Below, piece after piece: positions 41,057 through 60,299 of a stretch of 64,000 nt of DNA. The DNA is from Herbaspirillum sp. WKF16 (GTDB lineage Bacteria > Pseudomonadota > Gammaproteobacteria > Burkholderiales > Burkholderiaceae_D). The stretch's first letter is position 1. Each line of letters opens with the position of its first letter. The position numbers and the translations under genes are program-made. The notes below the pieces were generated by a model. It searched no databases. It was not told the origin of the DNA and was given only the letters and a program-made list of their open reading frames with translations. The stretch is taken from NCBI RefSeq assembly GCF_028993615.1, contig NZ_CP118632.1, positions 4,922,465 through 4,986,464 on the forward strand, read 5' to 3'.

Positions 41057-41081
41057 TGGATTGCCTGGTGAAAAACGACGC

Positions 41082-41852
41082 TTACAGCGTCTTGATGCGC
41101 TCGACCATTTCCGCGCCGAACGCGATATAGGCTTGCGCACCCTTGGATTGGGGATCGAAGTTCACGCCCGGTACGCCGTAGGACGGCGCTTCGGCCAGGC
41201 GTACGTTGCGCGGGATGACGGTCTTGAAGACCTTGTCGCCGAAGTGCTGCTCCAGCTGGTCGGAGACCTGCTGCGACAGCGTCATGCGCGGGTCGAACAT
41301 CACGCGCAAGAGGCCGATCACCTTGAGCTCCGGGTTCAGCTTGGCGTGCACCTTCTTGATGGTGTTGACCAGATCGGACAGGCCTTCCAGCGCGTAGTAC
41401 TCGCACTGCATCGGGATGATCACGCCGTGCGCCGAGCACAGGCCGTTGAGGGTCAGCATCGACAGCGCCGGCGGGCAGTCGATCAGGATGAAATCGTAGT
41501 CGTCGGCGACGGTGGCGAAGGCGTTCTTCAGGCGCGCCTCGCGCTGCTCCAGTTCGACCATCTCGACCTCGGCGCCGGCCAGCTCGCGGTTGGCGGGCAG
41601 CACGTCGAACTTGCCGGCCTCGGAGGTGATGCGCACGCTGCGGATGTCGGACATGCCCAGCAGCACTTCATAGATCGAGCCCTGCAGCGTGGCCTTGTTG
41701 ATGCCGGCGCCCATGGTGGCGTTGCCCTGCGGATCGAGGTCGGCCAGCAGGACGCGCTGGTTCAGCTGGGCCAGGCCGGCGGCGAGGTTGACTGCGGTAG
41801 TGGTCTTACCGACGCCGCCCTTCTGGTTGGCGACGCAAAAAATTTTAGCCAT
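41082..41852 (-). CDS. parA: chromosome partitioning ATPase ParA (Soj)
   Basis: 256 residues. The deviant Walker A KGGVGKTTT is at 11-19, then DLDPQGNATMG (Walker A') and FILIDCPPALSMLTLNGL (Walker B). The ATP-bound dimer binds DNA and positions ParB-parS complexes. The stop codon is 25 bases before the parB start on the same strand, so the two are cotranscribed. Upstream, an LysE gene lies 18 bases away, so transcription may come through from mnmG/rsmG. Confidence 0.97.
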   Translation of the reverse strand: MAKIFCVANQKGGVGKTTTAVNLAAGLAQLNQRVLLADLDPQGNATMGAGINKATLQGSIYEVLLGMSDIRSVRITSEAGKFDVLPANRELAGAEVEMVELEQREARLKNAFATVADDYDFILIDCPPALSMLTLNGLCSAHGVIIPMQCEYYALEGLSDLVNTIKKVHAKLNPELKVIGLLRVMFDPRMTLSQQVSDQLEQHFGDKVFKTVIPRNVRLAEAPSYGVPGVNFDPQSKGAQAYIAFGAEMVERIKTL

Positions 41853-42569: not shown

Positions 42570-43106
42570 TTACTGCTTGCTCTTCACCAGCCGCGCGGTG
42601 TCGAAGCCCTGCTTGGTGGCGTCGTTGACGGCGTTCTCGTATTGCTCGTCGCTGATGGCGGGCGTGCGCGAGAGTATCCACAGGTACTCGCGCGAGGGGC
42701 TGCCGACGGTGGCCAGCGTGTACTGCTCGTCCAGGGCCATGATCCAGTAATCGCCCCACACCATCGGCACCCAGGACAGCCAGGCCGGCGCGAAGCGCAC
42801 CTGCAGCTTGCTGTTGTTGCTGCCCGGGACGACGCGCGCCACACCCTCGGCCTCGTCGCTGCCGTCGGCGGTCTTGCAGCGGTTGGTGACGCCGATTTCG
42901 CCATCCTCGCGCGCGCGGTATTCGGCGGTGGTGCCGGAGACGCACTTCTTCTGGAAGCCGTTGGGGATCTTGGCGATCTCGTACCACTTGCCGGCGTAGC
43001 GCTTGAGGTCGACCGCGGGGACGGTCTTGACTTCCTGCGCACAGGCGGCGGCGGTGACTGCGAACGACATCAGTGTGGCCGCGACGGCCCGGGCGGGGAT
43101 ATTCAT
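42570..43106 (-). CDS. lipocalin family protein (Blc-like)
   Basis: 178 residues. An N-terminal export signal (AVAATLMSFAVTAAACAQ) is followed by the lipocalin GxW motif RYAGKWYEIAKIPNGFQKKC and YWIMALDEQYTLATVGSPSREYLWILSR, typical of bacterial Blc. Blc in E. coli is an outer-membrane lipoprotein that binds lysophospholipids. Here the Cys in AAACAQ is in roughly the right place, but the lipobox is not canonical. The start overlaps the rsmG stop as TGATG. Confidence 0.88.
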   Translation of the reverse strand: MNIPARAVAATLMSFAVTAAACAQEVKTVPAVDLKRYAGKWYEIAKIPNGFQKKCVSGTTAEYRAREDGEIGVTNRCKTADGSDEAEGVARVVPGSNNSKLQVRFAPAWLSWVPMVWGDYWIMALDEQYTLATVGSPSREYLWILSRTPAISDEQYENAVNDATKQGFDTARLVKSKQ

Positions 43107-43768
43107 CAGGACGCTCTTTCAATAAAGATGAGATGCCGTTCGGCATCCAGTCCGGGCACATGCAAGGGCTGTACCTTCTCCACCTTCCAGCCCGGCGGCA
43201 ACCGGTCGATTTCCTGCTGCGGCATCACGCCTTTCAAGGCGATGTACTTGCCGCCTTGCTGCAACAGGTGGTTCGACCAGTCGATGAAGTCGTTGAGTTC
43301 CGCGAAGGCGCGCGAGGTGATGACGTCGTATTGTTGCTCCGTCGGCAATTGTTCGACGCGTGCATGGAAGACCGAGACATTGCCCAATTGCAACTCTGCT
43401 TTCACCTGGGTCAGGAAGGCGGTCTTCTTCTGCACCGTGTCGACCAGGCTGATCTGCATCTGCGGCTCGGCGTCGGCCGCCCAGATGGCCAGCACGATGC
43501 CCGGCAAGCCGCCGCCGGCGCCTACGTCCAGCACGCGGCGGGCGCCGGCGAAGGCGCCGACCGCGGCCAGCGAGTCCAGCAGGTGGTGGGTCACCATCTG
43601 CGCCGGGTCGCGCAGCGCGGTCAGGTTGTAGACCTTGTTCCACTTGATCATCAGCGCCTGGTAGGCCATCAGCCGCGCCAGCTGGCGCTCGCCCAGCGCC
43701 AGTCCAAGTGCGGCGGCGCCTTCCTTCAGCGTTTGGGTCAGGGTATTCTGGTCAGCCGTGATGCTCAT
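43106..43768 (-). CDS. rsmG: 16S rRNA (guanine527-N7)-methyltransferase
   Basis: 220 residues. The SAM-binding motif DVGAGGGLPGIVLAI follows an HHLLDSLA segment, and VITSRAFAELNDFIDW is conserved in RsmG (GidB). It methylates G527 of 16S rRNA. It is 35 bases after mnmG on the same strand, the classical gidA-gidB order, and overlaps the lipocalin start by one base. Confidence 0.96.
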   Translation of the reverse strand: MSITADQNTLTQTLKEGAAALGLALGERQLARLMAYQALMIKWNKVYNLTALRDPAQMVTHHLLDSLAAVGAFAGARRVLDVGAGGGLPGIVLAIWAADAEPQMQISLVDTVQKKTAFLTQVKAELQLGNVSVFHARVEQLPTEQQYDVITSRAFAELNDFIDWSNHLLQQGGKYIALKGVMPQQEIDRLPPGWKVEKVQPLHVPGLDAERHLIFIERAS

Positions 43769-43803: not shown

Positions 43804-45735
43804 TCAGGCCGCTTCATTGGTGGCGTTGCGCACGCCCTGCTTCAGGCCGCCCTTCTTCAGGTGCACCAGCAGCAGCGACAGCGCCGCCGGCGTCACGCCG
43901 GAAATGCGCGAGGCCTGGCCCAGGGTTTCGGGCTTGTGCTTGTTGAGCTTCTGGCGCACTTCGATGGACAGGGCCTGGACCTCCATGTAGTCGAGGTCGG
44001 CCGGCAGCTTGAGGTTTTCATTGTGGTCCTGGCGACTGATCTCGCTGGCCTGGCGCGCGATGTAGCCGGCGTACTTGACCTGGATCTCGACCTGCTCGCG
44101 CACCGGGCCATCCTCGATGCCGGGGCCGGCCAGGGCTTCGCCTTCGGCGCCGGTCAGGCTCATCAGGCTATCGTAGCTGACGTTGGGCCGGCGCAGCAGG
44201 TCCAGCAGGTTGTACTCGCGCTCGATGGCCTTGCCCAGCACGCGCTCGGCTTCGGCCGCTTGCAGGATGCGCGGGTTCACCCAGGTGCTCTTCAGCCGTT
44301 CCATCTCGCGGGCGACCGCTTCGCGCTTCTTGTCGAAGGCGGCCCACTGGGCATCGCCGATGCAGCCGAGCTCGCGGCCGATCTCGGTCAGGCGCAGGTC
44401 GGCATTGTCCTCGCGCAGCGACAGGCGGTATTCGGCGCGGCTGGTGAACATGCGGTACGGCTCCTGCACGCCCTGGGTGACCAGGTCATCGACCAGCACG
44501 CCGAGGTAGGCCTCGTCGCGACGCGGCGTCCAGGCTTCGCGGCCCTGGGTCTGCAGCGCGGCGTTGATGCCGGCCAGCATGCCCTGCGCCGCGGCTTCCT
44601 CGTAGCCGGTGGTGCCGTTGATCTGGCCCGCGAAGAACAGGCCGCCGATCTGGCGGGTTTCCAGCGAGGACTTCAGGCCGCGTGGATCGTAGTAGTCGTA
44701 TTCGATGGCATAGCCGGGACGCAGGATGTGGGCGTTCTCCATGCCCTTCATCGAGCGCACCAGCTCCAGCTGCACGTCGAACGGCAGGCTGGTGGAGATG
44801 CCGTTGGGGTAGAACTCGTGGGTCGTCAGGCCCTCGGGCTCCAGGTAGATCTGATGCGAATCCTTGCCCGCGAAGCGGTGGATCTTGTCCTCGATGGACG
44901 GGCAATAGCGCGGGCCCACGCCTTCGATCACGCCGGTGTACATCGGGCTGCGGTCGAGGCCGCCGCGGATGATGTCATGGGTGCGGCTGTTGGTATGGGT
45001 GATCCAGCACGGCATCTGGCGCGGGTGCATGGCGGCGTTGCCCATGACCGAGAATACCGGCACCGGATCGAGGTCGCCCGGCTGTTCTTCGAGGATGGCG
45101 AGGTTGATGCTGCGGCCGTCGATGCGCGGCGGCGTGCCGGTCTTGAGGCGGCCCTGCGGCAGCTTCAGCTCCTTCAGGCGCGCCGACAGGGACACTGCCG
45201 GCGGGTCGCCGGCGCGGCCGCCGGCGTAGTTGTTCAGGCCCACGTGGATCTTCCCGTCCAGGAAGGTGCCGGCGGTCAGCACCACCGCCCTGCCCTGGAA
45301 GCGGATACCGGCCTGGGTCACGGCGCCGACCACGCGGTCGCCCTCGATCATCAGGTCGTCCACTGCCTGCTGGAACAGCCACAGGTTGGGCTGGTTCTCC
45401 AGGCGCGAACGGATCGCCGCCTTGTACAGCACACGATCCGCCTGGGCCCGGGTGGCACGCACGGCCGGGCCCTTGGAGGAATTCAGGATGCGGAACTGGA
45501 TGCCCGCCTCGTCGGTGGCGATCGCCATCGCCCCGCCCATGGCATCGACTTCCTTGACCAGGTGGCCTTTGCCGATGCCGCCGATGGACGGATTGCAGGA
45601 CATCTGGCCCAGGGTTTCGATGTTGTGCGTCAGCAGCAGGGTCTTCTGGCCCATGCGCGCCGCGGCCAGTGCGGCTTCGGTGCCGGCATGTCCGCCGCCG
45701 ACGACAATGACGTCAAATTGTGTGGGGTATAGCAT
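43804..45735 (-). CDS. mnmG: tRNA uridine-5-carboxymethylaminomethyl modification enzyme MnmG (GidA)
   Basis: 643 residues, the family length. The FAD-binding motif [18 protein letters not shown] is at the N-terminus; [23 protein letters not shown] and [14 protein letters not shown] are diagnostic. With MnmE it installs cmnm5 at U34 of tRNA, the substrate of the oxidase half of MnmC encoded at 6114-8072. It heads the mnmG-rsmG-lipocalin-LysE-parA-parB run. parS sites lie just upstream at 45941 and 46041. Confidence 0.97.
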
Positions 45736-45940
45736 GGATCGCCTCTTGGAGAGGTAGGAACGGTGGTGGGAGCAGAGGCGAGATTATAAAGTCTTTTGCC
45801 GGGAGGGGTCGGGGGCCGGATCGGATTAAGGCGAATATAGCCTGGGGTGATGCTGGTTTGCCTCATCCCCCTCCCCTCGCTCGACGCTATTACCGGTTCG
45901 GGACGATAGCCGAAACTGATCAATGAAACATTTTCGCCGT

Positions 45941-45956
45941 TGTTTCACGTGAAACA
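45941..45956. other. parS: parS site 1
   Basis: TGTTTCACGTGAAACA, an exact 16-bp match to the universal chromosomal parS consensus bound by ParB. It lies 206 bases upstream of the mnmG start. Confidence 0.96.
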
Positions 45957-45996
45957 GCGATGACCAATGTGCCTCGGTCAATCACGTTCAAAAATA

Positions 45997-46020
45997 AAAA
46001 CGGAGCCGAAGCTCCGTTTT
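45997..46020. terminator. bidirectional terminator between the two parS sites
   Basis: The stem AAAACGGAGC / GCTCCGTTTT with a CGAA loop has A and T runs on both sides; it mainly serves the TSUP gene reading leftwards. Confidence 0.85.
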
Positions 46021-46040
46021 CATGACGATGTTAGCGGCGC

Positions 46041-46056
46041 TGTTTCACGTGAAACA
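46041..46056. other. parS: parS site 2
   Basis: A second exact TGTTTCACGTGAAACA, starting precisely 100 bp after parS site 1 and 17 bases from the end of the TSUP gene. Confidence 0.96.
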
Positions 46057-46072
46057 GTACGCGCCACATTCG

Positions 46073-46834
46073 CTATTTCAGGAAGGCATCGTAGGCGCTC
46101 TTCACAATCAAGGCGCCCACCACTACGAGGAAGAGCTTGCGCACGAAAACACTGCCGTGTTTCATGGCCAACCGGGTACCTACAAGGGAGCCGCCAATAT
46201 TGAACACGGCCATCAACAAGCCGAGCTGCCAGATGACGTGACCGCTGTAACCGAACCAGCACAGGGCCGCCAGGTTGGTGGCAATGTTGACGAACTTGGA
46301 GACGGCCGAGGCCGACAGGAAGTCGTAGCTGAATACCCGTACGAACAGGAACACCAGGAAGCTGCCGGTACCGGGACCGAACACGCCGTCATAGAACCCA
46401 ACCCCGGCGCCGATCAATGCGGCATAGAACATCTCCTTCGCGCCGGTCAGCGTCGGCGCGTGGGTGGTGCCGAAGTCCTTCTTCTTCAGGGTGTACAGCG
46501 CCACCGCGATCAACACGAAGGGCAAGGCCTTGCGGATCAGGTCGGTCGGCACGTGCGTGACCACATAGGCGCCGAAGAAGGACAAGGCGAAGGCCGCGAT
46601 CGCCGCCGGCGTCACCGTGCTCCAGCGCACCGCCACCTTGCGCGCGAAATTGATGGCCGCCGCACTGGTGCCCATCACCCCGGCCACCTTGTTGGTGCCC
46701 AGCAGCGTGGCCGGCGCCGTATTGGGGAAGACCGAGAACAGGGTCGGCACCAGCACCAGCCCCCCTCCTCCCACCACGGCATCGATCAAGCCGGCGACAA
46801 ACGCGCCGGCGCACAGGATCAGGTAATCAAGCAT
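46073..46834 (-). CDS. TSUP family permease (TauE/SafE, YfcA-like)
   Basis: 253 residues, about eight membrane helices. The N-terminal GLIDAVVGGGGLVLVPTLF and the second-half repeat GVGFYDGVFGPGTGSFLVF are the paired signatures of the TauE/SafE family. Members move sulfite, sulfoacetate or other small anions; the substrate is unknown. It is monocistronic with a terminator at 45997-46020 between the parS sites. Confidence 0.92.
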   Translation of the reverse strand: MLDYLILCAGAFVAGLIDAVVGGGGLVLVPTLFSVFPNTAPATLLGTNKVAGVMGTSAAAINFARKVAVRWSTVTPAAIAAFALSFFGAYVVTHVPTDLIRKALPFVLIAVALYTLKKKDFGTTHAPTLTGAKEMFYAALIGAGVGFYDGVFGPGTGSFLVFLFVRVFSYDFLSASAVSKFVNIATNLAALCWFGYSGHVIWQLGLLMAVFNIGGSLVGTRLAMKHGSVFVRKLFLVVVGALIVKSAYDAFLK

Positions 46835-47128
46835 GGCGGACCACCTGAGCGGAAATACGAGATTGCATTACAGGACTTTCGAAAGTGGATGAGCGAAAGG
46901 AAGGATGACCTGCGGCCGGCCCCACCGGCTGCGGGAGCGATATTCTACCCCGCCCGGCCCAGGCATATTGGCAACAGATCAATGCGTGCGTCGGCTGTTT
47001 CGCAACAGCGCCCGCTGTTATGGCTCGCCAACCGTACGGACAAAAAATTACCGCCGGGAAATCACCTTGCGGTGACTTGCCGGCGGCAAGGACACCATCG
47101 CGGACGATGGCGTCGTTCTCTCTCGAAC

Positions 47129-48112
47129 TCAGTGACCCTGGCTGGCCTTCTGCCCCTTGCCCACCAGCGCCAGGATCTCGCCGACGATGCCCTTGCGGAA
47201 CAGCAGCACGCAGACGATGAAGATGAAACCGGTGACGATGGTGACCGAGTCGCCCAGGGTGTTGAACCACTCGATGTGCGTCACGTTGGCCAACCAATTG
47301 CCGATATCGCCCAGCTTGTTCTCCAGCATGATGATGATCACCGCGCCGACGATCGGGCCGACGATGGTGCCCAGGCCGCCGACCAGGGTCATCAGCACCA
47401 CCAGGCCGGACATGCTCCAGTGCACGTCGGTCAGGGTCTCGAAGCCGAGCACCAGGGTCTTGGTGGAACCGGCCAGGCCCGACAGCGCCGCCGATAGCAC
47501 AAAGGCCAGCAGCTTGTAGCGCGCCACGTCATAGCCCAGCGAGATGGCGCGCGGCTCGTTCTCCTTGATCGCCTTGAGCACCTGGCCGAAGGGCGAGCTG
47601 ATGGTGCGCACGATCAGGGCGAAACCGAACACCGCGATGGCCAGCACCACGTAGTACAGGGTCAGGTCGCTGCTGAGGTCGATGAAGCCCAGCAGCTTGC
47701 CGCGCGGCACGCCTTGCAGGCCGTCCTCGCCACCGGTGAACGGCGCCTGCAGGGCGACGAAGAACAGCATCTGCGCCAGCGCCAGCGTGATCATGGTGAA
47801 GTAGATGCCCTGCCGGCGAATCGCCAGCAAGCCCATCACCAACCCGATCAGCGCCGCCGTCGCGGTGCCGACCACCAGGCCCAGCTCGGTCGGCAAGCCC
47901 CACACCTTCAGCGCCTGGCCGCACATGTAGCCGGCCCAGCCGAGGAAAGCGGCATGGCCGAAGGACAGCAGGCCGGTATAGCCGATCAGCAGGTTGAAGG
48001 CGCAGGCGAAGAGTGCGAAGCACAGCATCTTCATCAGGAACACCGGATAGATGCCGAACGGAGCAGCCAGCGCAAGTATTAACAGAATGACAACTATAAG
48101 TTTCTTGTTCAT
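47129..48112 (-). CDS. livM: branched-chain amino acid ABC transporter permease LivM
   Basis: 327 residues with about nine or ten membrane helices. The characteristic GYTGLLSFGHAAFLGWAGYMCG and the EAA-like loop SPFGQVLKAIKENEPRAISLGYDVARYKL are present. It is the last gene of the liv cluster and starts 13 bases after the livH stop. Imports leucine, isoleucine, valine or related ligands. Confidence 0.95.
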   Translation of the reverse strand: MNKKLIVVILLILALAAPFGIYPVFLMKMLCFALFACAFNLLIGYTGLLSFGHAAFLGWAGYMCGQALKVWGLPTELGLVVGTATAALIGLVMGLLAIRRQGIYFTMITLALAQMLFFVALQAPFTGGEDGLQGVPRGKLLGFIDLSSDLTLYYVVLAIAVFGFALIVRTISSPFGQVLKAIKENEPRAISLGYDVARYKLLAFVLSAALSGLAGSTKTLVLGFETLTDVHWSMSGLVVLMTLVGGLGTIVGPIVGAVIIIMLENKLGDIGNWLANVTHIEWFNTLGDSVTIVTGFIFIVCVLLFRKGIVGEILALVGKGQKASQGH

Positions 48113-48125
48113 GCCGGTCTCACTC

Positions 48126-49010
48126 TCATTTCTCTTTGCCGAACAGGCCGGCCGGACGCACCATCAGGACGATGGCCATGATGATGAACACCACCGTGGC
48201 CGACAGCTCCGGGTAGAACACCCGGGTCAGGCCCTCGATCAGGCCCAGCATCAGGCCGGTCAGGATGGAGCCCAGGATGGAGCCCATGCCGCCGATCACC
48301 ACCACTGCGAACACGGTGATGATCAGGTTCGAACCCATCAGCGGCGACACCTGGATCACCGGCGCCGCCAGCACGCCGGCAAAGGCCGCCAGGGCCACGC
48401 CGAAGCCGTAGGTCAGGGTGACCATCAGCGGCACGTTGATGCCGAAGGCCTCGACCATCTTGGGGTTCTCGGTGCCGGCGCGCAGGTAGGCGCCCAGGCG
48501 CGTCTTCTCGATTACGAACCAGGTTGCGAAGCAGACCACCAGCGAGGCCACCACCACCCACGCGCGATAGTTGGGCAGCACCATGAAGCCCAGGTTGGTC
48601 GCGCCCTGCAGCAGGTCCGGCACCGAATAAGGCTGGCCGGAGACGCCGTAGATGGAGCGGAACACGCCTTCCACCATCAGCGTGATGCCGAAGGTCAGCA
48701 GCAGGCCGTACAGGTGGTCCAGCTTGTAGAGCCAGCGCAGCATGGTCTTCTCGATGATGATGCCGAAGACGCCCACGATGAGCGGCGCCAGGGCCAGCAT
48801 CACCCAGTAGTTGAGCTCGAAATAGCTCAAGCCCATCCAGGCCAGGAAAGCGCCGAGCATGTAAAGCGTGCCGTGCGCGAAGTTGATCACGTTGAGCAAG
48901 CCGAAGATCACAGCCAGGCCGAGCGACAGCATGGCGTAGAAGGAGCCGTTGACCAGGCCCAGCAGCAGCTGGCTCAGCAAGGCTTGCAGGGGAATGCCGA
49001 ATATATCCAT
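48126..49010 (-). CDS. livH: branched-chain amino acid ABC transporter permease LivH
   Basis: 294 residues with about eight helices. The motifs GLVNGSFYAMLSLGLAVIFGLLNVINFAHGTLYMLGAF and the loop KTRLGAYLRAGTENPKMVEAFGIN are classical for LivH. It follows livJ, but an unusually stable inverted repeat at 49089-49126 lies between them. Confidence 0.95.
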   Translation of the reverse strand: MDIFGIPLQALLSQLLLGLVNGSFYAMLSLGLAVIFGLLNVINFAHGTLYMLGAFLAWMGLSYFELNYWVMLALAPLIVGVFGIIIEKTMLRWLYKLDHLYGLLLTFGITLMVEGVFRSIYGVSGQPYSVPDLLQGATNLGFMVLPNYRAWVVVASLVVCFATWFVIEKTRLGAYLRAGTENPKMVEAFGINVPLMVTLTYGFGVALAAFAGVLAAPVIQVSPLMGSNLIITVFAVVVIGGMGSILGSILTGLMLGLIEGLTRVFYPELSATVVFIIMAIVLMVRPAGLFGKEK

Positions 49011-49088
49011 AAAAACCCGTTCATCCAGATGGGTGAAGAACGCAACCGACGGAAACCGCCCTCTTCCGGGCCTCGCTTCCTACAGCAA

Positions 49089-49126
49089 AAATCTGCCATT
49101 CCCGCTTGGACGGAAATGGCAGATTT
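49089..49126 (-). terminator. intra-operon terminator or stabilising stem between livJ and livH
   Basis: A perfect 12-bp stem AAATCTGCCATT / AATGGCAGATTT surrounds a 14-base loop, with TTTTGCTG following on the minus strand. It would reduce read-through into livH-livM or protect the livJ message, giving more binding protein than permease. Confidence 0.7.
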
Positions 49127-49159
49127 CGCGGATTGCCTTTACTGCCTAGAACCGACTGC

Positions 49160-50368
49160 TTACTTCCACGCCGCGCACTTGGACTCAGCCTTGGTGGTCC
49201 ATGCCTGCTCGGCAGGGATGGTTTGCACCAGCTTGTAGTAGTCCCACGGATACTTCGATTCCGATTGCGCCTTGACCTGGTACAGGTACATGTCGTGCAT
49301 CACGCGGCCGTCGGCGCGCAGGTAACCGCCCTTCTGGTACACGTCGTTGAACTTGGCCTTGCGCAGTGCGGCCATGACCTTGTCCGAATCGTCGGTGCCG
49401 ATTTCCTTGACCACCTTCAGGTACTGCAGCGCTGCCGAGTAGTCGGCGGCTTGCAGCGAGGACGGCATTTTCTTGCGCACGGCGAAGTAACGCTTGGCCC
49501 AGGCGCGGGTTTCTTCATTGGCGTCCCAGTACCAGCTGTCGGTCAGGTACAGGCCTTCCGTGGTCTTCAGGGTCAGCGAGTGCACGTCGTTGATGAACAC
49601 CAGCAGGCCGGCCAGCTTGGCGGTCTTGGTGATGCCGAACTCGTTGGCTGCCTTCACCGCGTTGATGAAGTCGCCGCCGGCATTGGCCAGGCCGACGATC
49701 TGGGCCTTGGAGCTCTGCGCCTGCAGCAGGAAGGACGAGAAGTCCGATGCGCCCAGCGGGTGCTTCACGGAACCGACCACGGTGCCGCCCGAGGCCTTCA
49801 CCACGGTGGCCGTGTCGGCTTCCAGCGAGTGGCCGAAGGCATAGTCGGCGGTCAGGAAGAACCAGCTCTTGCCGCCCTGCTTGACCACCGCCGAACCGGT
49901 GCCCTTGGCCAGCGCCACGGTGTCGTAGGCATAGTGCACGGTGTACGGCGAGCACTCTTCATTGGTCAGGCGGGCCGAGCCGGCGCCGATCTGCATGTAG
50001 ACGCGCTTCTTCTCGGCCGCAACCTTGGCCGAAGCCAGCGCGGTGCCGGAGTTGGTGCCGCCGATCAGCATGTCCACGCCCTGCTGGTCGAACCATTCGC
50101 GCGCCTTGCTGGCGGCGACGTCTGCCTTGTTCTGGTGGTCCGCCACCAGCAGTTCGACCTTCTTGCCGTTGATCGAGCCGCCCATGTCGGCGATCGCCAT
50201 CTTGATGGCTTCAGCGCCGCCTTGGCCGTCGATGTCCGAGTACACGCCCGAAATATCGGTGATGAAACCGATCTTGATCACGTCACCCGAGATCTGGGCC
50301 GAAGCCGGCGCCATCGAGAAAGCCGCAGCCGCAGCTGTGACGGCGAGTGCCATTGCCTTAAGTTTCAT
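49160..50368 (-). CDS. livJ: ABC transporter substrate-binding protein, branched-chain amino acid type
   Basis: 402 residues from ATG at 50368 (MKLKAMALAV); GAGGAG ends 6 bases upstream of this ATG but directly abuts the alternative ATG at 50374. The signal peptide is cleaved after about PASA-QISG. The mature type I periplasmic binding fold starts VIKIGFITDISGVYSDIDGQGG. The ligand is uncertain: relatives bind leucine-type or aromatic and other organic acids. It lies between livF and livH in the cluster. Confidence 0.9.
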   Translation of the reverse strand: MKLKAMALAVTAAAAAFSMAPASAQISGDVIKIGFITDISGVYSDIDGQGGAEAIKMAIADMGGSINGKKVELLVADHQNKADVAASKAREWFDQQGVDMLIGGTNSGTALASAKVAAEKKRVYMQIGAGSARLTNEECSPYTVHYAYDTVALAKGTGSAVVKQGGKSWFFLTADYAFGHSLEADTATVVKASGGTVVGSVKHPLGASDFSSFLLQAQSSKAQIVGLANAGGDFINAVKAANEFGITKTAKLAGLLVFINDVHSLTLKTTEGLYLTDSWYWDANEETRAWAKRYFAVRKKMPSSLQAADYSAALQYLKVVKEIGTDDSDKVMAALRKAKFNDVYQKGGYLRADGRVMHDMYLYQVKAQSESKYPWDYYKLVQTIPAEQAWTTKAESKCAAWK

Positions 50369-50566
50369 TTTCATCTCCTCAGTGTTGAAGCCCGCTAATG
50401 GGTGTTGATGCGAGACAGCTTTTTATAGGGCGGAGGAAGGATCGCTCCCCCCGCGAACGTACTTGAACGTACCTGTCGGCCGTACTTCTTCTTATGGTGA
50501 TGCTGGTGTTCTTGTGGTGTGGATCTGTTGCCCGCGGATTGCCGCGCCGATGACACGCCGGGACGC

Positions 50567-51322
50567 TTACACGCCCAGCAGTTCGTTCAGCGTCTGCATC
50601 TTCGCTTCCAGCTGCGAGGACTCGAAGGACTCGACGATCTGGCCATGCTCCATCACGTAGAAGCGATCGGCCAGGGGCGCGGCGAAGCGGAAGTTCTGCT
50701 CGACCATCACGATGGTGTAGCCCTTGGCCTTGAGCGTGGTGATCATGCGCGCCAGGGCTTGCACGATGACCGGCGCCAGGCCTTCGGAGATCTCGTCCAG
50801 CAGCAACAGGCGCGCGCCGGTGCGCAGGATGCGCGCCACCGCCAGCATCTGCTGCTCGCCGCCCGACAGGCGGGTGCCCTGGCTGTTGCGGCGCTCCTTG
50901 AGGTTGGGGAACATGTCGTAGATCTCATCGACCGACATGCCCTTGTCGGTCTTCGACACGAAGGGCGGCAGCAGCAGGTTTTCCTCGGCCGACAGCGACG
51001 AGAAGATGGCGCGTTCTTCCGGGCAGTAGCCCACGCCGTGGTGGGCGATCTTGTGGGTGGCCAGGTTGATGGTTTCCTGGCCGTTGATCTTGATCGAGCC
51101 CTTACGGGTGCCGACCAGGCCCATGATCGAACGCAGCGTGGTGGTGCGGCCGGCGCCGTTGCGGCCCAGGAGCGTGACGACTTCGCCCTGGTGCACGTTC
51201 AGGTTGACGTTGTGCAGGATGTGCGACTCGCCGTACCAGGATTGCAGGTCGCTGATCTGCAGCGCCAGCGGCGCGGTGGAAGTGGATTGGCTCACGGGGC
51301 TGTTCATGGTTGCGGTCGACAT
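50567..51322 (-). CDS. livF: branched-chain amino acid ABC transporter ATP-binding protein LivF
   Basis: 251 residues. Signature RLSGGEQQMLAVAR, Walker B LLLLDEISEGLAP and the H-loop region IVMVEQN are intact. Walker A reads GRNGAGRTT, with Arg59 in place of the usual lysine. The N-terminal segment of about 18 residues is Ser/Thr-rich and unlike the family; ATG at 51307 is an alternative. It starts within the livG stop codon. Confidence 0.93.
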   Translation of the reverse strand: MSTATMNSPVSQSTSTAPLALQISDLQSWYGESHILHNVNLNVHQGEVVTLLGRNGAGRTTTLRSIMGLVGTRKGSIKINGQETINLATHKIAHHGVGYCPEERAIFSSLSAEENLLLPPFVSKTDKGMSVDEIYDMFPNLKERRNSQGTRLSGGEQQMLAVARILRTGARLLLLDEISEGLAPVIVQALARMITTLKAKGYTIVMVEQNFRFAAPLADRFYVMEHGQIVESFESSQLEAKMQTLNELLGV

Positions 51323-52092
51323 CAGTGCGCTCCCTGCAGTTCGGTGGCGGCGGTGCCCATGTAGGCTTCCATCACCTGCGGGTTGCGCGAGACTTCTGCG
51401 TAGGAGCCTTCGGCCAGCACCGCGCCGCGCTGCAGCACGCTGATGCGGTCGCAGATGCCGGAGATCACGCTCATGTTGTGCTCCACCATCAGGATGGTGC
51501 GGCCGGCCGAGACCTTCTTGATCAGCGCGGTGACGCGGTCCACGTCTTCGTGGCCCATGCCTTGGGTCGGTTCATCCAGCAGCATCAGCTCGGGCTCCAT
51601 CGCCAGCGTGGTGGCGATCTCCAGCGCGCGCTTGCGGCCGTAGGGCAGGTCCACCGTGGTGGTCCTGGCGAAGCCGGTCAGGTCGACCTCTTCCAGCAGT
51701 TCCATGGCGCGCTCGTCGAGCTGCTTCAAGCTCTCGCCGTTCTTCCAGAAATGGAAGGACGTGCCGAGCTTGCGCTGCAGGCCGATGCGCACGTTTTCCA
51801 GCACGCTCATGTGCGGGAAGACCGCGGAAATCTGGAAGGAACGGATGATGCCCTGGCGCGCGATCTGCGCGGGAGCGTCCATCGTGATGTCTTTGCCGTT
51901 GAACAGGATCTGGCCCGAGGTCGGCACCAGGAACTTGGTCAGCAGGTTGAAACAGGTAGTCTTGCCGGCGCCGTTGGGGCCGATCAATGCATGAATGTGG
52001 CCGCGTTCAATTTGCAAATTGACTGCGCTTACCGCCGTGAACCCTTTGAATTCCTTCGTCAGGTTCTTTGTCTCCAGAATGACGTCTGTCAT
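51322..52092 (-). CDS. livG: branched-chain amino acid ABC transporter ATP-binding protein LivG
   Basis: 256 residues. Walker A GPNGAGKTT is intact, in contrast to LivF. The LivG-type signature region reads VDLPYGRKRALEIATTLAMEPELMLLDEPTQGM and ILMVEHNM. It is the first gene of the livG-livF-livJ-livH-livM cluster; the ATG at 52092 is preceded by GGGAAAG. The upstream gap (52093-52304) carries an ATACG...CGTAT element at about 52262-52280 that may be part of its control region. Confidence 0.95.
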   Translation of the reverse strand: MTDVILETKNLTKEFKGFTAVSAVNLQIERGHIHALIGPNGAGKTTCFNLLTKFLVPTSGQILFNGKDITMDAPAQIARQGIIRSFQISAVFPHMSVLENVRIGLQRKLGTSFHFWKNGESLKQLDERAMELLEEVDLTGFARTTTVDLPYGRKRALEIATTLAMEPELMLLDEPTQGMGHEDVDRVTALIKKVSAGRTILMVEHNMSVISGICDRISVLQRGAVLAEGSYAEVSRNPQVMEAYMGTAATELQGAH

Positions 52093-52304
52093 GGTCTCAT
52101 CTTTCCCTTTTATGCCCGCGCCGGTGATCCGGTCATCAAGGCCTGCCCTACCGCGAATCTCCTGATGCTTGTGACATGAGGGACCGTCGTTTTTATCTGG
52201 CGAATCGAGAAGCTCGTTTTAATATTTGGCGCATAGTAGCCGAGTCGTACCATTCCTACAATACGTATATATACCGTATCGGCCGGCGCTCCGGGAATTT
52301 GCCC

Positions 52305-53927
52305 TCAACGCCCGGAAAGCACGTGGGCAGCGACTTTCTCGGCGATCATGATGGTCGGCGAGTTGGTATTACCGGATGTGATGGAAGGCATCACGGAAGC
52401 GTCTGCCACCCGCAGCCCGCGCACCCCGCGCACGCGGCATTGCGAGTCGACCACGGCCTGCGCGTCGTCGCCGCGTCCCATGCGGCAAGTGCCCACGGGA
52501 TGGAAGATCGTGGTGCCCACCTCGCCGGCGGCGCGGTGCAGGTCTTCCTCGGTTTCGTAATGAAGGCCGGGCTTGAACTCTTCCGGTTGGTATTTGGCCA
52601 GCGCCGGCGCGGCGGCGATGCGGCGCGTCAGCCGCAACGAGTCGGCCGCCACCTTCAGGTCTTCCTGCGTGGCGAGATAATTGGTGGTGATCCTGGGCGC
52701 CAGCGCATGGTCCACGGACGCGAGCCGCACATGGCCGCGCGAGGTCGGCCGCAGGTTGCACACGCTGGCGGTGAAGGCGGGGAAGGCATGCAGCGGATCG
52801 CCGAACTTCTCCAGCGACAGCGGCTGCACGTGGTATTCGAGGTTGGCGCTGGCCTGAGTGGGATCGGACTTGGCGAAGGCGCCCAGCTGCGAGGGCGCCA
52901 TCGACATCGGCCCGCTCTGCCTGAGCACGTACTCCAGGCCGATCATCATCTTGCCCACCAGCGTGGAAGCCATGGCGTTGAGCGTCTTGGCGCCGGAAAC
53001 CTTGAAGGCGGTGCGGATCTGCAAGTGATCCTGCAGGTTTTCGCCCACGCCGGCCAGCTCATGCACGACCGGGATCTGGTGGCGGCCCAGCAGCTCGGAC
53101 GAGCCGATGCCGGACATCTGCAGGATATGCGGCGAACCGATGGCGCCGGCCGCCAGGATGGTTTCCCGCTTCGACTCGGCGAACCACTCGCCGCCGCCGC
53201 CGGTGAATTCCACGCCGGTGCAGACCGGTCCGTTCTCACCCTGGGAGAATCGCAGCTTCTTTACATGCGATCCGGTCATGATGTCGAGGTTGCCGCTCTT
53301 CATCGCCGGCCGCAGGAAGGCCTTGGAGGCATTCCAGCGAATGCCGCGCTTCTGGTTGACGTCGAAGTAACCGCAGCCCTCGTTGTCGCCGCGGTTGAAA
53401 TCGTCGGTCTTGGGAATGCCGGTCTGCGCCGCCGCTTCGCGGAAGGCGTCCAGGATGTCCCAGCGCAGGCGCTGCTTCTCCACCCGCCATTCGCCGCCGG
53501 AGCCGTGGAACTCGTCGCCGCCCAGGTGGTAGTCCTCGCTCTTCTTGAACAGGGGCAATACATTGTCCCAACGCCAGCTGTCGTCGCCGCTGACGCGGGC
53601 CCACTCGTCGTAGTCGCGCGCCTGCCCGCGCATGTAGATCATGCCGTTGATCGAGGAGCTGCCGCCCAGCACCTTGCCGCGCGGATAGATCAGGCTGCGG
53701 CCGTTCAGTCCGGGATCGGCCTCGGTGCGGAACAGCCAGTCGGTGCGGGGATTGTTGATGCAGTAGAGATAGCCGACCGGGATGTGGATCCAGATGTAGT
53801 CGTCCTTGGCGCCCGCCTCCAGCAGCAGCACCTTCACCCCGGGCTGCTTGGAAAGACGGTTGGCCAGCACGCAACCGGCAGTGCCGGCGCCGATGATGAT
53901 GTAGTCGTATTGCCCTGCCGATTGCAT
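52305..53927 (-). CDS. GMC family oxidoreductase (choline dehydrogenase-like)
   Basis: 540 residues. The FAD-binding [16 protein letters not shown], the second GMC motif [20 protein letters not shown] and the C-terminal HPVGTCRMG with the catalytic His region are present. It oxidises an alcohol to an aldehyde using FAD. It lies 158 bases downstream of mmsA on the same strand, so the pair may oxidise an alcohol to an acid or CoA ester. The true substrate is not shown by the sequence. Confidence 0.92.
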
Positions 53928-55597: not shown

Positions 55598-55833
55598 ATA
55601 AGTATTCCTTTGGTGATTGCCGTAAGACCGGGGCGGATCCGTCTCCTGATCCATACGCCCCGGCGTGATGGTTGCCAACGATGCTAAAAAAGACAGACGT
55701 TAGGAGAATATCGCGCCGGAGCGGCACGATCCAATGAGTTATTATCAGCAGTAATATAAGCAATATTTATAAGACTGGCTTCCCGGCTATTTCACGCTGA
55801 TCGCCAAAAAGAACACATTAACCGAAATTGACG

Positions 55834-56718
55834 ATGGATATCGTACAGTTACGCGCATTTATTACAGTCGCCCGTGAAGGCAACCTGACCCGGGCGGCCG
55901 AGAAGCTGCACGTCACCCAGCCCGCCGTCAGCCTGCAGATCAAGGCGCTGCAGGAAAGCCTGGGCCTGCAGCTGTTCAATCGCGGCGCCGGCGGCATGGT
56001 GCTGACGGTGGCAGGCAACAAGCTGCTGCCGATGGCCGAGCGCATCCTGGCCGAGCTGCAGGAACTGCGGCGCCACGCGGCCGCCCTGCAGGCCAGCGCC
56101 GCCCACCTCTCCGGCTCGCTGGCCATCGGCACCATCCTCGATCCCGAATTCATCCGCCTGGGCGCCTTCCTCAAGCTGCTGGTCGAACGCCATCCGCAGC
56201 TCTCCACCAAGCTGGCGCACCACATGTCCGGCTCGGTGCTCAACGAGATCCGCGACGGCCGGCTCGATGTCGGCTTTTTCCTGGGCGACCCGGGCAAGGG
56301 CTTCCACGCCATGACGCTCACGCCCTTCACCTACAACGTGATCGCCCCGGCCGGCTGGAAGAGCAGGGTCGCCGGCCGCGGCTGGAAGGAGTTGTCGCGC
56401 CTGCCCTGGATCTGGACGCCGCCGGAGTCGGCCCACCACCGCCTGCTCTCCAAGGTCTTCGCCCAGCACAAGGTGCAGCCCAACACCGTGGCCCTGGTGG
56501 ACCAGGAATCTTCCATGCTGGACCTGGTGAAATCCGGCGTCGGCCTGTCGCTGGCGCGTGAATCCATCGCGCTGAGCCAGGCGCACGCCCATGGCCTGGT
56601 CATTGCCGACGCGGTCGAGCTCTCCACGGAACTCAGTTTCATTACCCTGGAGAAACGCCAGAACGAAGACGGGTTGAAAGCAGTGTTCCAGGTCTTGCAA
56701 GAGGTCTGGAAAAATTGA
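55834..56718 (+). CDS. LysR family transcriptional regulator, divergent from mmsA
   Basis: 294 residues from ATG at 55834 (MDIVQLRAFITVAREGNLTRAA); a TTG six bases upstream is in frame but less likely. The HTH contains VTQPAVSLQIKALQESLG. The effector domain covers about 92-294. The 236-base AT-rich gap to mmsA contains ATAAGCAATATTTATAA-type sequence suitable for LysR binding. It probably regulates mmsA and perhaps the GMC gene. Confidence 0.9.
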   Translation: MDIVQLRAFITVAREGNLTRAAEKLHVTQPAVSLQIKALQESLGLQLFNRGAGGMVLTVAGNKLLPMAERILAELQELRRHAAALQASAAHLSGSLAIGTILDPEFIRLGAFLKLLVERHPQLSTKLAHHMSGSVLNEIRDGRLDVGFFLGDPGKGFHAMTLTPFTYNVIAPAGWKSRVAGRGWKELSRLPWIWTPPESAHHRLLSKVFAQHKVQPNTVALVDQESSMLDLVKSGVGLSLARESIALSQAHAHGLVIADAVELSTELSFITLEKRQNEDGLKAVFQVLQEVWKN

Positions 56719-56840: not shown

Positions 56841-56922
56841 CATTCCTTCTGCCTTTGCCGTTTTTGCTGTTTTTTGACTTGTCCCCGCTGTTCCGCTTTT
56901 TCTGTTCTTTAAATTAAAGAGG

Positions 56923-57130
56923 TATATATAAAGATAGTAATGATTGTTAACGCAGCGATTTTCTGTGGATAACCCGGTTAACCCGAATCGAATCAATTAT
57001 TTACGCCGTTGATAAACGCTTGGTAAGCTTCTGGATTGCTGAAGAACAAATATTGGATAAATTTTCGGCTTGGGATAACTCGATGAGATATACCCAATTC
57101 ACGCAGCAGATATGCAAAGACTTATCCACA
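56923..57130. other. origin-like segment 1 with DnaA boxes (candidate oriC half)
   Basis: Elements in order: TATATATAAA (56923), GTTAAC (56946), DnaA box TGTGGATAA (56964-56972), GATAAACGCTTGG (57011), TTGGATAAA (57053), TTGGGATAAC (57070) and the inverted DnaA box TTATCCACA (57122-57130). The first and last boxes match the consensus exactly. The AT-rich left end would suit DNA unwinding. The same order and spacing recur at 57651-57857. Confidence 0.7.
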
Positions 57131-57193
57131 GGCGGGCCTGAAACCGCCGAAAAGACCAAATAAACAGGCATCCCGACCCAAGCCCCTGCATCC

Positions 57194-57496
57194 ATGAGCT
57201 CCACGCCGCCGTTTTCCATCCTGGTCGAACCTGCCGGACTCCATTTCGAGCAGCGTCCCGGTTTGTCCCTGCTGCAATCGGCGCTGGCGCAGGGGATCCG
57301 TTTGCCCAATTCCTGCCGTAACGGCGCCTGCCGCACCTGCATGTGCAAGTTGGTTTCAGGAAACGTGGATTACCAGATCGAATGGCCGGGATTGACCCGG
57401 GAAGAAAAACAGGAAGGCTGGATCCTTCCCTGCGTGGCCGAGGCGCGTTCCGACCTGGTGATCGAGGTGCCTGATGCGGTCGACCTCAAGAAATGA
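57194..57496 (+). CDS. 2Fe-2S ferredoxin
   Basis: 100 residues. Plant-type iron-sulfur ligands are visible as Cys41, Cys46, Cys49 (CRNGACRTCMC) and Cys80 (ILPCVAEA), with an extra Cys51. The beta-grasp pattern ILVEPAGLHFEQRPGLSLLQSALAQG precedes the cluster loop. It is a soluble electron carrier; its partner reductase is not in the window. It sits exactly between the two origin-like segments, 64 bases after the last DnaA box of the first. Confidence 0.92.
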   Translation: MSSTPPFSILVEPAGLHFEQRPGLSLLQSALAQGIRLPNSCRNGACRTCMCKLVSGNVDYQIEWPGLTREEKQEGWILPCVAEARSDLVIEVPDAVDLKK

Positions 57497-57650
57497 AGCC
57501 TGAGCCCTCTGCCTGGCATCCACGGTCAATCGGGAGGGCTTGCCTCCCATGTTTTCCATCCTGACGAACAGGGAACGGAGCCGGCTTTCCAGAGCGCAGC
57601 GAAGCGCCGATGTGCGCGTTCCGGGTTTTCTGTCTTTTAGGATAAGTTTG

Positions 57651-57857
57651 TATATATAAATAGTAGGTAATAGTTAACACAGGCCCTTTTCTGTGGATAA
57701 CCCGGTTTACCGGAAAAGAATCAGTCAGTTGGGAAAAGGATAAACGCTTGGCAAGGCGTGTATGACCGGCTAACAGTTCGGGGATAAAAAATTCGCCTTG
57801 GATAACTTTCAGGCTTGTCCCCAATCCATAACAAAGTTATCCAGACCTTTATCCACA
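57651..57857. other. origin-like segment 2 with DnaA boxes (candidate oriC half)
   Basis: Elements: TATATATAAA (57651), a TAGTAGGTAATAG stretch, GTTAAC (57673), DnaA box TGTGGATAA (57692-57700), GATAAACGCTTGG (57739), TTGGATAACT (57798), one-mismatch box TTATCCAGA (57838) and inverted box TTATCCACA (57849-57857). Measured from TATATATAAA, the TGTGGATAA box and GATAAACGCTTGG fall at exactly the same offsets (41 and 88) as in segment 1, and the last box at 198 versus 199. Confidence 0.7.
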
Positions 57858-58051
57858 GGCTGAGCTTGGATATGCGGAAAACGTGGGCTCAGGGGCAACT
57901 TTGCGAAACACCGCATTTCTGGCGGTTTGCGCCCGGTTTTCTTGCCGTTTTCCCGCCTGCAGGGGTATTTGGGCGGCATTTTCAGGCGATTCCGGCCGCA
58001 ACAGGATATTTGTGAGTATTTAATTCGATCGAAATGTCGATCGAAAAACGA

Positions 58052-58110: not shown

Positions 58111-60159
58111 CTATTTTTTAGGCGCGCTCTTTGCGCCGGCATTGTTACCGGCGCTCTTGCCCGGCGGCGGGGCCTGCGGCGCCTTCTTCACTTCTTCCAG
58201 CAGGTTGGCGCAATCGGCTTTCTGTTCGCCATCGACATTGATCAGCGGCAGGATCGCCGTGACCGGGGCCAGCAGGCCCAGCGCCACCGCGCCGCCGGCG
58301 CGCAAGGCCAGCACGCCGGCATTCACGCCCACGTCCGGATTCTTGAAAGTGCCCTTCACGTACAGCGGCGAACGCAGCGAAATGATGCGCAGGCCCTTGC
58401 TCTTGGGATGCACCTTCAGGTCCAGCTGTTCCTGCTTCATGTCCACCGTGCCGTCCACCACGATCAAGGCGTCCTCGGTATCCAGGATCAGGGTCTTGGC
58501 CTGCATCACGCCGTTGTTGACCGGCAGGTCGCCGGCCAGGCAATTTAGTTTCACCTCCTTGTCGCCGAACAGCTTGCTGATCACCACATTGCCCACGTTC
58601 AGGCCGGCCGCCTCCAGCAGGAACTTGCTGATCGCGCCCTGGCTCACCAGTGTCTTCACCTCACCGTTGGCCGAGCCCAGCATGGCCGCGATGGAGTTCC
58701 CCGTGGCCGAGAGCCTGGCGTCGCCGTTGATCTCGCCGAAGCTGGTCTTGGACGAGGCCAGCTCTGGATACAACTGCTGGATCTTGAGGCGCCGCGCCGA
58801 CATCTTGATGTCGGACTTCATCTGCTTGTCCTGCCCATCGAGGCGGATGGCCGAGCGCAAGTTGCCGCCGGCCACGCCGAAGTTCAGCGGATCCAGCGTC
58901 AGCACCTTGTCCTTCAGCAGCAGGTGCGCCTGCAGGTCGCTGATGGGCAGGTCCTTCTGCTTCAGGATGCGCTTGGCCACCAGCTTGACGTCGGCGTCCA
59001 GCGCACCCCAGGCCTCGGTGCTGAAGGGCTTGACCGGCAATACCTTGTCTGCCGGCTGGCGCTCCTCGGCGCCGCGGTGGGCCTTCTCTTCATTGGAATC
59101 GGCGCCGATCAGCGGCGCCAGGTCGTCGAAGCGCAGCAGGTTCGAGGTAATTGCGCCGTCCAGCCGCGGTCGCGCGCCGGCCGTGTTGTAGAACAGGCTG
59201 CCGCCGATGTCGCTGGCGCCGACCTTGCCGGTGAACTCTTCATAGCTCCATTCGCTGTGCTTGGCGTCGATCTTGCCTACCAGGTGGCCTTCTGTTGCGA
59301 ACGGCGGGGTTTCCGGCAGCAGCACGCCGGTCAGCGGATAAAGGTTGCCCATGCTGGCGCCCGAGACCGACAGCCGCAGGTCCAGCGCCGCCAGCTCGGC
59401 CGGCTTGGTCAGCGTGCCGCGCACGCCGATGGCGGTCTTGCCGACCTTGACGTTGGCCTGCAGCGGATAAGGTTGCTGCTGGTCTTGCAGCGACAGCACG
59501 CCGCCGGCCTTGCCTTCGCCCGAGACTGGCGCGCCGTTGAAGCTGCCCTTGAGCTTCCAGCCCAGGCCGTAGACCTTCTCCTTGTCCGGATCGAGGGTGT
59601 CGACCTCGGCCTTGATGTCGATCTTCTGTGTCGCATCGTTGAGCGCCAGCGTGCCGCTGCGCAGGATCAGCCGGCCCAGCTTCAGGTTCCAGGGCGAAGG
59701 CCCGTCGTCGCTGCTCTTGAAGGTCCAGTTGTTGACGCTGTCCTTGTTGCGCAGGAGCGAGACGTCGGGGTTCCTGATTTCCAGCGTCGGCACCGAGATG
59801 TCATGCACCAGCAGCGGCACCGGGTTGAGCGTGAAGGTGATCTGCTTGACGGTGGCCATCTTGCCGGACTGGCTGAAGGCCTCGGGGTTGGCCAGCGTGA
59901 TGTCCTCGGCCTGCAGGCGCGGCCAAGGGACCCAGCGCGACCAGCCGGTCATCGGCGGCGTGGTGGGCTCGGCGCGCTGCCAGTTCAGCGACAGGTCGCC
60001 GTTGATGGCGAACTCGCGCCCGATCGACTCCGAGACGCGGTGATTGATCCAGGGCTTGGCCCGGTTCCAGTCGAAGGTAAGGATGAAGATGACCGCCGCG
60101 GCGATCACGAGGACAAGGCTGGCAAGCAGCCACAGGAATATTTTTAATGGGCGCGGCAT
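58111..60159 (-). CDS. AsmA family protein
   Basis: 682 residues from ATG at 60159 (MPRPLKIFLWLLASL), with GGAAG upstream; ATG at 60192 is possible. One N-terminal membrane helix (about 5-27) anchors a large periplasmic beta-rich body typical of AsmA/TamB-like bridges, including FDWNRAKPWINHRVSESIGREFAINGDL at the start and the C-terminal DLKVHPKSKGLRIISLRSPLYVKGTFKNPDVGV. The family is linked to outer-membrane phospholipid transport and assembly. It is monocistronic. Confidence 0.9.
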   Translation of the reverse strand: MPRPLKIFLWLLASLVLVIAAAVIFILTFDWNRAKPWINHRVSESIGREFAINGDLSLNWQRAEPTTPPMTGWSRWVPWPRLQAEDITLANPEAFSQSGKMATVKQITFTLNPVPLLVHDISVPTLEIRNPDVSLLRNKDSVNNWTFKSSDDGPSPWNLKLGRLILRSGTLALNDATQKIDIKAEVDTLDPDKEKVYGLGWKLKGSFNGAPVSGEGKAGGVLSLQDQQQPYPLQANVKVGKTAIGVRGTLTKPAELAALDLRLSVSGASMGNLYPLTGVLLPETPPFATEGHLVGKIDAKHSEWSYEEFTGKVGASDIGGSLFYNTAGARPRLDGAITSNLLRFDDLAPLIGADSNEEKAHRGAEERQPADKVLPVKPFSTEAWGALDADVKLVAKRILKQKDLPISDLQAHLLLKDKVLTLDPLNFGVAGGNLRSAIRLDGQDKQMKSDIKMSARRLKIQQLYPELASSKTSFGEINGDARLSATGNSIAAMLGSANGEVKTLVSQGAISKFLLEAAGLNVGNVVISKLFGDKEVKLNCLAGDLPVNNGVMQAKTLILDTEDALIVVDGTVDMKQEQLDLKVHPKSKGLRIISLRSPLYVKGTFKNPDVGVNAGVLALRAGGAVALGLLAPVTAILPLINVDGEQKADCANLLEEVKKAPQAPPPGKSAGNNAGAKSAPKK

Positions 60160-60299
60160 AGGCTCGGTCTTCCCGTAAGGGGTGATCAACATGCGCCGAT
60201 GCCGCGGCCGCCGAAGACTTCCGGGGCAGGCCCATCCGCCCGCCCCAGTCTCCGCAGGGCGGTGGAAGATCGACGGATGTTATGCCTGCGTGCGCCGCA

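Follow-up and report, generated by a model that had tools for sequence, protein, structure and literature searches.

Bacterial chromosomes are generally held to carry a single origin of replication, and models in which initiation occurs once per cell cycle presuppose a single-copy oriC. The question raised here is what kind of structure is formed by two oriC-like segments, A and B, that lie less than 1 kb apart on the chromosome of Herbaspirillum sp. WKF16. The window analysed is the final 64 kb of the complete 4,986,464-bp chromosome, whose record starts at dnaA (1–1431), and the A/B pair lies 6–7 kb upstream of that gene. An initial annotation had described the two segments as oriC-type, with conserved spacing, on either side of a ferredoxin gene, and had considered them to be either duplicated or the halves of a bipartite origin.

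Segments A and B carry one common series of elements with matching offsets. The element TATATATAAA starts at 56923 in A and at 57651 in B, and from this point CTGTGGATAA follows at +40 in both, GATAAACGCTTGG at +88 in both, and TTATCCACA at +199 in A and +198 in B, exactly as first annotated. Global alignment of A with B gave identity in 152 of 229 columns and a score of 63; 300 shuffles of B gave a mean score of −43 (sd 6.5, maximum −21). The 4.986-Mb chromosome contains the box TTATCCACA at 10 places, four of which are the boxes R1 and R4 of A and B, which stand at an offset of 157–158 from one another. Furthermore, A and B are the only two sites in the WKF16 genome that match the R1-to-R4 pattern (gap of 134–164), and the same pattern read backwards matches no site in that genome. 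Table 1 lists the elements of both units and the surrounding genes.

Table 1. Features of the two oriC-like units and their surroundings in the WKF16 window (window coordinates).
Feature	Position	Strand	Basis
parB	40142–41140	−	–
parA-like gene	41082–41852	−	Pfam AAA_31; NCBIfam ParA models under cut-off
rsmG	43106–43768	−	–
mnmG	43804–45735	−	–
Two perfect parS sites (45941–45956 and 46041–46056)	45941–46056	+	Two in 0/100 shuffles
LysR-family regulator beside unit A	55828–56718	+	Homologues adjoin units in several other genera
Unit A, oriC-like module, full element series	56905–57130	+	Profile match 56894–57135
Unit A, AT-rich stretch with TATATATAAA, TAGTAA and GTTAAC; predicted unwinding element	56907–56951	+	Sequence, family conservation
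Unit A, box R1 (TTATCCACA on minus strand)	56964–56972	−	Exact
Unit A, IHF-type site AATCAATTATTTA, 27 nt from R1 start	56991–57003	+	Consensus match, 0 mismatches
Unit A, weak DnaA boxes at 57007, 57052 and 57070	57007–57078	−	2 mismatches each
Unit A, box R4 TTATCCACA	57122–57130	+	Exact
[2Fe-2S] ferredoxin gene (fdx), Fer2 domain, between units A and B	57194–57496	+	Domain match
Unit B, oriC-like module, full element series	57633–57857	+	Profile match 57623–57862
Unit B, AT-rich stretch with TATATATAAA, TAGTAGGTAATAG and GTTAAC	57634–57678	+	Sequence, family conservation
Unit B, box R1	57692–57700	−	Exact
Unit B, IHF-type site AATCAGTCAGTTG, 27 nt from R1 start	57719–57731	+	Consensus match, 0 mismatches
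Unit B, weak DnaA boxes at 57779 (−), 57797 (−), 57815 (+) and 57837 (+)	57779–57845	Mixed	57837: 1 mismatch; others: 2
Unit B, box R4 TTATCCACA	57849–57857	+	Exact
AsmA-family protein gene beside unit B	58111–60192	−	–
Two DnaA boxes upstream of dnaA	63838–63887	−	One exact, one with 1 mismatch

In both units, R1 and R4, the predicted high-affinity DnaA boxes, bracket weaker boxes in the manner of an E. coli-type oriC. A predicted IHF site lies between R1 and the next box, called by match to WATCARNNNNTTR, which we take to be the IHF consensus. Similarly, an AT-rich predicted unwinding element, recognised on sequence alone, lies beside R1 in A, in B and across the family. The oriC of E. coli (NC_000913.3, 3925744–3925975) presents R1 (TGTGGATAA), an IHF site at +27 and R4 (TTATCCACA) in the same order, and adjoins mnmG. 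It differs from A and B in being single copy, in its R1-to-R4 offset of 180, and, in the sequence of that record, in having many GATC sites and lacking the TATATATA-TAGTAG motif; its IHF match at +27 carries two mismatches to the consensus used here, compared with none in A and B. By their sequence features, A and B are of the E. coli type of oriC.

This likeness was also found by a first, sequence-only profile of 68 units, which was searched over 1.02 Mb. The profile found A, B, both units of Herbaspirillum sp. alder98 (locus L050) and E. coli oriC itself (21.6 bits, E 7.5e-5); its only other lines were an echo on the reverse strand of L050 (E 0.0095) and a match 33 bases long (E 0.95). A leave-genus-out profile of 58 units, made without the WKF16 genus (g1), recovered A at E 8.6e-39 and B at E 3.3e-38. 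The oriC-type assignment made at the outset is thus upheld by the element series and by the match between the unit profile and E. coli oriC.

Herbaspirillum belongs to the Oxalobacteraceae, and the family sampled here (f1) was taken to be the Oxalobacteraceae on that ground; G labels denote genomes and g labels genera. The pattern TGTGGATAA-N(134–164)-TTATCCACA was searched in 300 genomes of the order, and matched seven of 11 family genomes, each at two or more sites, and 14 of the 289 others; read backwards, it matched none of the 300. With a narrower gap (138–160), 171 of 244 family genomes matched. As exact patterns missed diverged units, they were replaced by a sequence profile. At E 1e-8, the profile counted no unit in 10 of the 244 family genomes, one in 43, two in 143 and three in 48, so that 191 carry two or three units and 53 carry one or none; these are matches per genome rather than neighbouring units, and weak matches may have been lost. 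All 22 genomes of genus g143 have three units. In each of the 32 single-contig genomes that were picked for having two or more strong matches, these are no more than 4 kb apart. Outside the family, at least 10 genomes of the order show two weaker, sometimes partial, profile matches from a few hundred bases to ~3 kb apart (for example G282, G147, G026, G090, G190, G160 and G127; on opposite strands in G202, G257 and G116), and the doubling may therefore extend beyond the family.

A set of 116 units from 65 fetched loci shows how constant the module is. Unit length is 165–169 bp in all 116, even though the pattern permitted 156–178. The family consensus reads TTTATATATATAAATAGTAGTAATAGTTAACG, ~10 nt, CTGTGGATAA (R1), an IHF-type site, weaker boxes including GTGGATATCCA, and CTTATCCACA (R4). 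The IHF consensus at +27 from the start of R1 is exact in 39 of the 116 units and has at most one mismatch in 106, and at any other offset it occurs in at most three. The earlier suggestions of a duplication and of spacing under selection are supported.

The triplets beside R1 resemble the DnaA-trios described in a DnaA-trio/BUS survey (PMC8287927): they are of the TAG type, lie between a DnaA box and AT-rich DNA, and read 3′-GAT-5′ from the box. In-frame runs of at least four triplets of this kind occur in 76 of the 116 units, compared with 1% of shuffles. Unit A has TAG-TAA followed by 23 nt to R1, and unit B has TAG-TAG, one base, and TAA-TAG followed by 18 nt to R1. The definition asks for three or more trios, no further than 16 bp from a DnaA box, the limit used in the survey; with a family consensus spacer of 17 nt between triplets and R1, and with short runs in both A and B, the triplets fall outside this definition.

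Two DnaA-box clusters less than 1 kb apart with a gene between them also recall the bipartite origins of Bacillus subtilis and Helicobacter pylori, whose clusters lie less than 2 kb apart, and A and B might be read as the two parts of a single split orisome whose spacer is looped. In such origins, the unwinding element belongs to one of the two parts, and dnaA is usually the gene between them (PMC4285127). Here, the AT-rich element is present in both units with similar conservation, and the spacer is a lineage-specific fdx, with dnaA 6–7 kb away. Furthermore, the arrangement of the units varies in ways that a single split structure would not lead one to expect. Gaps between neighbouring units range from 192 to 733 bp (51 gaps in 45 loci), and reach ~3.2 kb in G502 among the matches listed. 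The units share one orientation in 44 of the 45 two- or three-unit loci, the pair in L120 being inverted, and inverted pairs occur in at least five genomes outside the fetched loci (G405, G434, G444, G454 and G465). Genomes with three units, or with one, likewise fit poorly with two obligate parts. The bipartite reading was rejected as improbable, given an AT-rich element in both units and a variable gap and orientation, and with it went the description of A and B as halves. Fixed unit length beside variable gap and orientation indicates, at the level of sequence, that the unit is rigid inside and the arrangement of units freer.

A midpoint-rooted tree of the 116 units bears on the age of the doubling. 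First units of g3, g142, g143, g147 and g170 cluster together (support 0.62), as do their last units (support 0.97); in g143, identity is 0.87 between same-position units of different genomes and 0.58 between units within one genome. Since first units group with first and last with last across genera, the doubling is, from the tree, old in these five genera. In g1, the units of both positions form one clade, which allows for a separate doubling or for sequence exchange in that genus.

The same divergence raises the prospect, which we regard as rather unlikely but not negligible, that only one unit is the working origin and the other a DnaA-binding control site for titration or reactivation, datA- or DARS-like, that keeps oriC-like boxes. 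In E. coli, control loci of this sort bind DnaA at chromosomal sites separate from the origin. Within a genome, units differ enough (mean identity 0.61 in g1, besides the g143 value above) that their roles may have split, and in several genera first and last units fall into different groups of the tree. However, conservation of the AT-rich/triplet zone is similar in both units, and titration alone would have no need of that zone. Information content was compared outside the end boxes R1 and R4, whose conservation the search pattern imposed; for first and second units of 38 same-direction pairs, it was 0.78 and 0.69 bits per position in the AT/triplet zone, 1.17 and 1.16 in the IHF site, and 0.19 and 0.18 in the far flank. 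In the third units of six loci, the AT/triplet and other zones are conserved likewise, and the narrow length range of all 116 units also argues against a split in function. Elsewhere on the WKF16 chromosome, far from the origin, two exact TTATCCACA boxes lie 365 bp apart on one strand (4391702–4392075); they form a candidate DnaA control site, at which the profile matches an end box alone (E 0.25).

The position of the units on the chromosome was considered next to that of dnaA. In keeping with the origin-proximal location first proposed, mnmG, rsmG, a parA-like gene, parB and two perfect parS sites lie 10–17 kb from A/B; the parS sites were called with what we take to be the parS consensus. 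Between parA/parB and the units, the window at 43804–53927 holds mnmG, an ORF matching PRK10621 (presumably a TSUP-type permease), an ABC transporter of the urea/branched-chain type and a GMC oxidoreductase, and parts of this block adjoin units in other genera. Exact parS sites are also found near the units of G300 (6–9 kb), G414 (4 kb) and G353 (1 kb), compared with 11 kb in the window. None was found in the 20-kb stretches that hold the units of G336 and G525, or in the dnaA stretches L009, L230 and L260; most other loci were only 3 kb long and thus uninformative for this survey.

The two boxes just upstream of dnaA are probably autoregulatory dnaA promoter boxes, to judge from their sequence and place. 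This region was rejected as a second oriC of the same type, as it has two boxes only and no profile match. The WKF16 ORF gap between dnaA and dnaN (~1.48 kb, L009:1432–2910), the place where other families have a unit, gave no unit match at E 1 in the profile search. In two g143 genomes (G490 and G504), the dnaA match is broken into two overlapping parts, as a frameshift would cause; assembly errors may be to blame.

In WKF16, skew and KOPS are noisy, and with dnaA only 6–7 kb away they do not separate the units from dnaA. In many relatives, the units are far from dnaA, which makes a polarity test of units versus dnaA possible. Among 32 single-contig genomes with two or more units (a set that leaves out the single-unit, single-contig G356 and G387), the distance between the nearest edges of units and dnaA is ~6 kb in six, all of g1, 19–66 kb in nine and more than 100 kb in 17, up to 789 kb; four g2 genomes have it at 48–62 kb. 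A skew transition at oriC is mentioned for Herminiimonas arsenitoxidans in one report (PMC5670224), and GGG(C/A/T)AGGG was used as KOPS for Burkholderia in another (PMC4948915). Polarity was assessed in four genomes, with 20 stretches of 20 kb each, by KOPS (GGGNAGGG) and GC skew, and with likelihoods that assume 85% polarity.

Three of the four genomes favoured the units over dnaA. In G414 (dnaA 0.28 Mb away), KOPS numbered 2 plus and 22 minus to the left of the unit stretch and 25 plus and 2 minus from it rightwards, placing the switch at 4300–4366 kb with the units at 4359 kb; the GC-skew switch, at 4858 kb, misses them (lnL −17.0 for units, −27.4 for dnaA). In G300 (0.72 Mb), the best KOPS and GC-skew switches lie at 5424 and 5416 kb, and the units at 5418 kb (lnL −21.2 and −28.1). 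In G336 (0.36 Mb), the best GC-skew switch is at 363 kb and the units at 364 kb, while the best KOPS switch, at 201 kb (189–299 kb), falls between dnaA and units (lnL −34.8 and −40.0). G525 (0.79 Mb) contradicts these results, as KOPS converge at its units and dnaA is the better fit (lnL −59.8 for units, −49.4 for dnaA). In a wider sample of G525, KOPS polarity alternates in large blocks around both dnaA and units, unlike in its g3 genus mate G414; as G414 fits well, our guess is that the G525 chromosome is rearranged or misassembled. The initial annotation had named a skew minimum elsewhere as evidence against an origin at this locus: in WKF16 itself dnaA is too close for this criterion to apply, three of the four relatives with dnaA 0.28–0.79 Mb away place the switch in favour of the units, and G525 does not.

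The initial annotation had also set the ferredoxin gene within the origin and had called for a comparison of the fdx locus across the family. In that comparison, fdx lay between the units in all six two-unit loci of g1 and in Herbaspirillum sp. alder98, the nearest named relative, where two units flank it in the same gene order as in WKF16 (GMC oxidoreductase, LysR, fdx, AsmA, LysR, glutamine amidotransferase; protein identity 70–97%). No fdx match at E 1e-8 was found in the other 39 two- or three-unit loci, and no unit near 36 fdx homologues elsewhere (L051–L086; best matches E 0.95 or worse). A role for the gene was therefore rejected. Among the loci examined, fdx between units is restricted to g1 (and alder98), and by this distribution it is a bystander, or passenger.

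DnaA also regulates transcription, and the units lie in intergenic gaps; they might then be DnaA-controlled promoter or regulatory regions of the LysR, ferredoxin or AsmA genes, with no origin present. This is very improbable, because the flanking genes change between genera while the units persist, polarity switches fit the units better than dnaA in three of four relatives, and the units match both E. coli oriC and the unit in the dnaA–dnaN gap of other families. Thirteen of 20 out-of-family loci fetched with the profile have their unit in that gap. A renewed search of 18 family genomes with one or no unit found a match in 14, placed between dnaA and dnaN in five (five genera), beside mnmG in seven (three genera), between two LysR genes in one, and unplaced in one. 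The simplest history that these placements suggest, drawn up without a species tree, would start from a single unit in the dnaA–dnaN gap, where it sits in other families and in five genera of the present one; the unit would have moved to the mnmG area and then been duplicated and, in some genera, triplicated. In genus g155, partial weak profile matches (E 3e-4) lie just downstream of dnaA (G434:C1:1406–1468 and G444:C1:1681–1806), possibly relics of a dnaA-linked origin.

The A/B pair is very probably the chromosome replication origin, and it appears to be built of two complete modules rather than halves. This reading draws on the elements and their fixed spacing, the family-wide doubling and tripling, the E. 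coli oriC match, and the nearby mnmG, parAB and parS. In the proposed mechanism, DnaA bound at R1 and R4 would extend across the weak boxes, with IHF bending the DNA that separates R1 from the following box, and the DnaA oligomer would open the AT-rich TATATATA-TAGTAG stretch to the left of R1, allowing helicase to load. As the unit is rigid and its gap, and sometimes its orientation, variable, each unit would act independently; either could start a round of replication, the other being copied passively by the fork. Firing from both units is plausible.

Double origins have been proposed elsewhere. Ralstonia pickettii, like Herbaspirillum, belongs to the Burkholderiales. Its strain 12D is among the DoriC chromosomes with putative double origins, each having more than one oriC-like region (Gao 2015; PMC4403523). 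Those are isolated cases, 150–880 kb apart or arising from gene-cluster duplications (PMC4403523), whereas the units described here form a close array in most sampled genomes of a family. Pseudomonas aeruginosa has two autonomously replicating origins on one chromosome, only one of which was reported to be essential, and they are not described as neighbouring copies (PMC4403523). One of the two units here could likewise be inactive, as has been reported of one P. aeruginosa origin (PMC4403523). Among the open-licence literature matches listed, judged by title and start of abstract, none treats tandem origins in this family.

We tentatively propose, as a possibility that falls somewhat short of even, that the whole family replicates from a natural array of two or three oriC modules, each complete and able to initiate independently; the array would have arisen after the relocation and be kept by selection. 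If so, the one-origin rule would here mean one origin locus with redundant origins. The findings point to origin relocation independent of dnaA, and genome records that start at dnaA may misplace the origin by hundreds of kilobases in this family. A family with tandem origins would offer a natural experiment: its sister modules are separated by a few hundred bases, and one could ask how each is licensed, fired and reset and why such redundancy persists.
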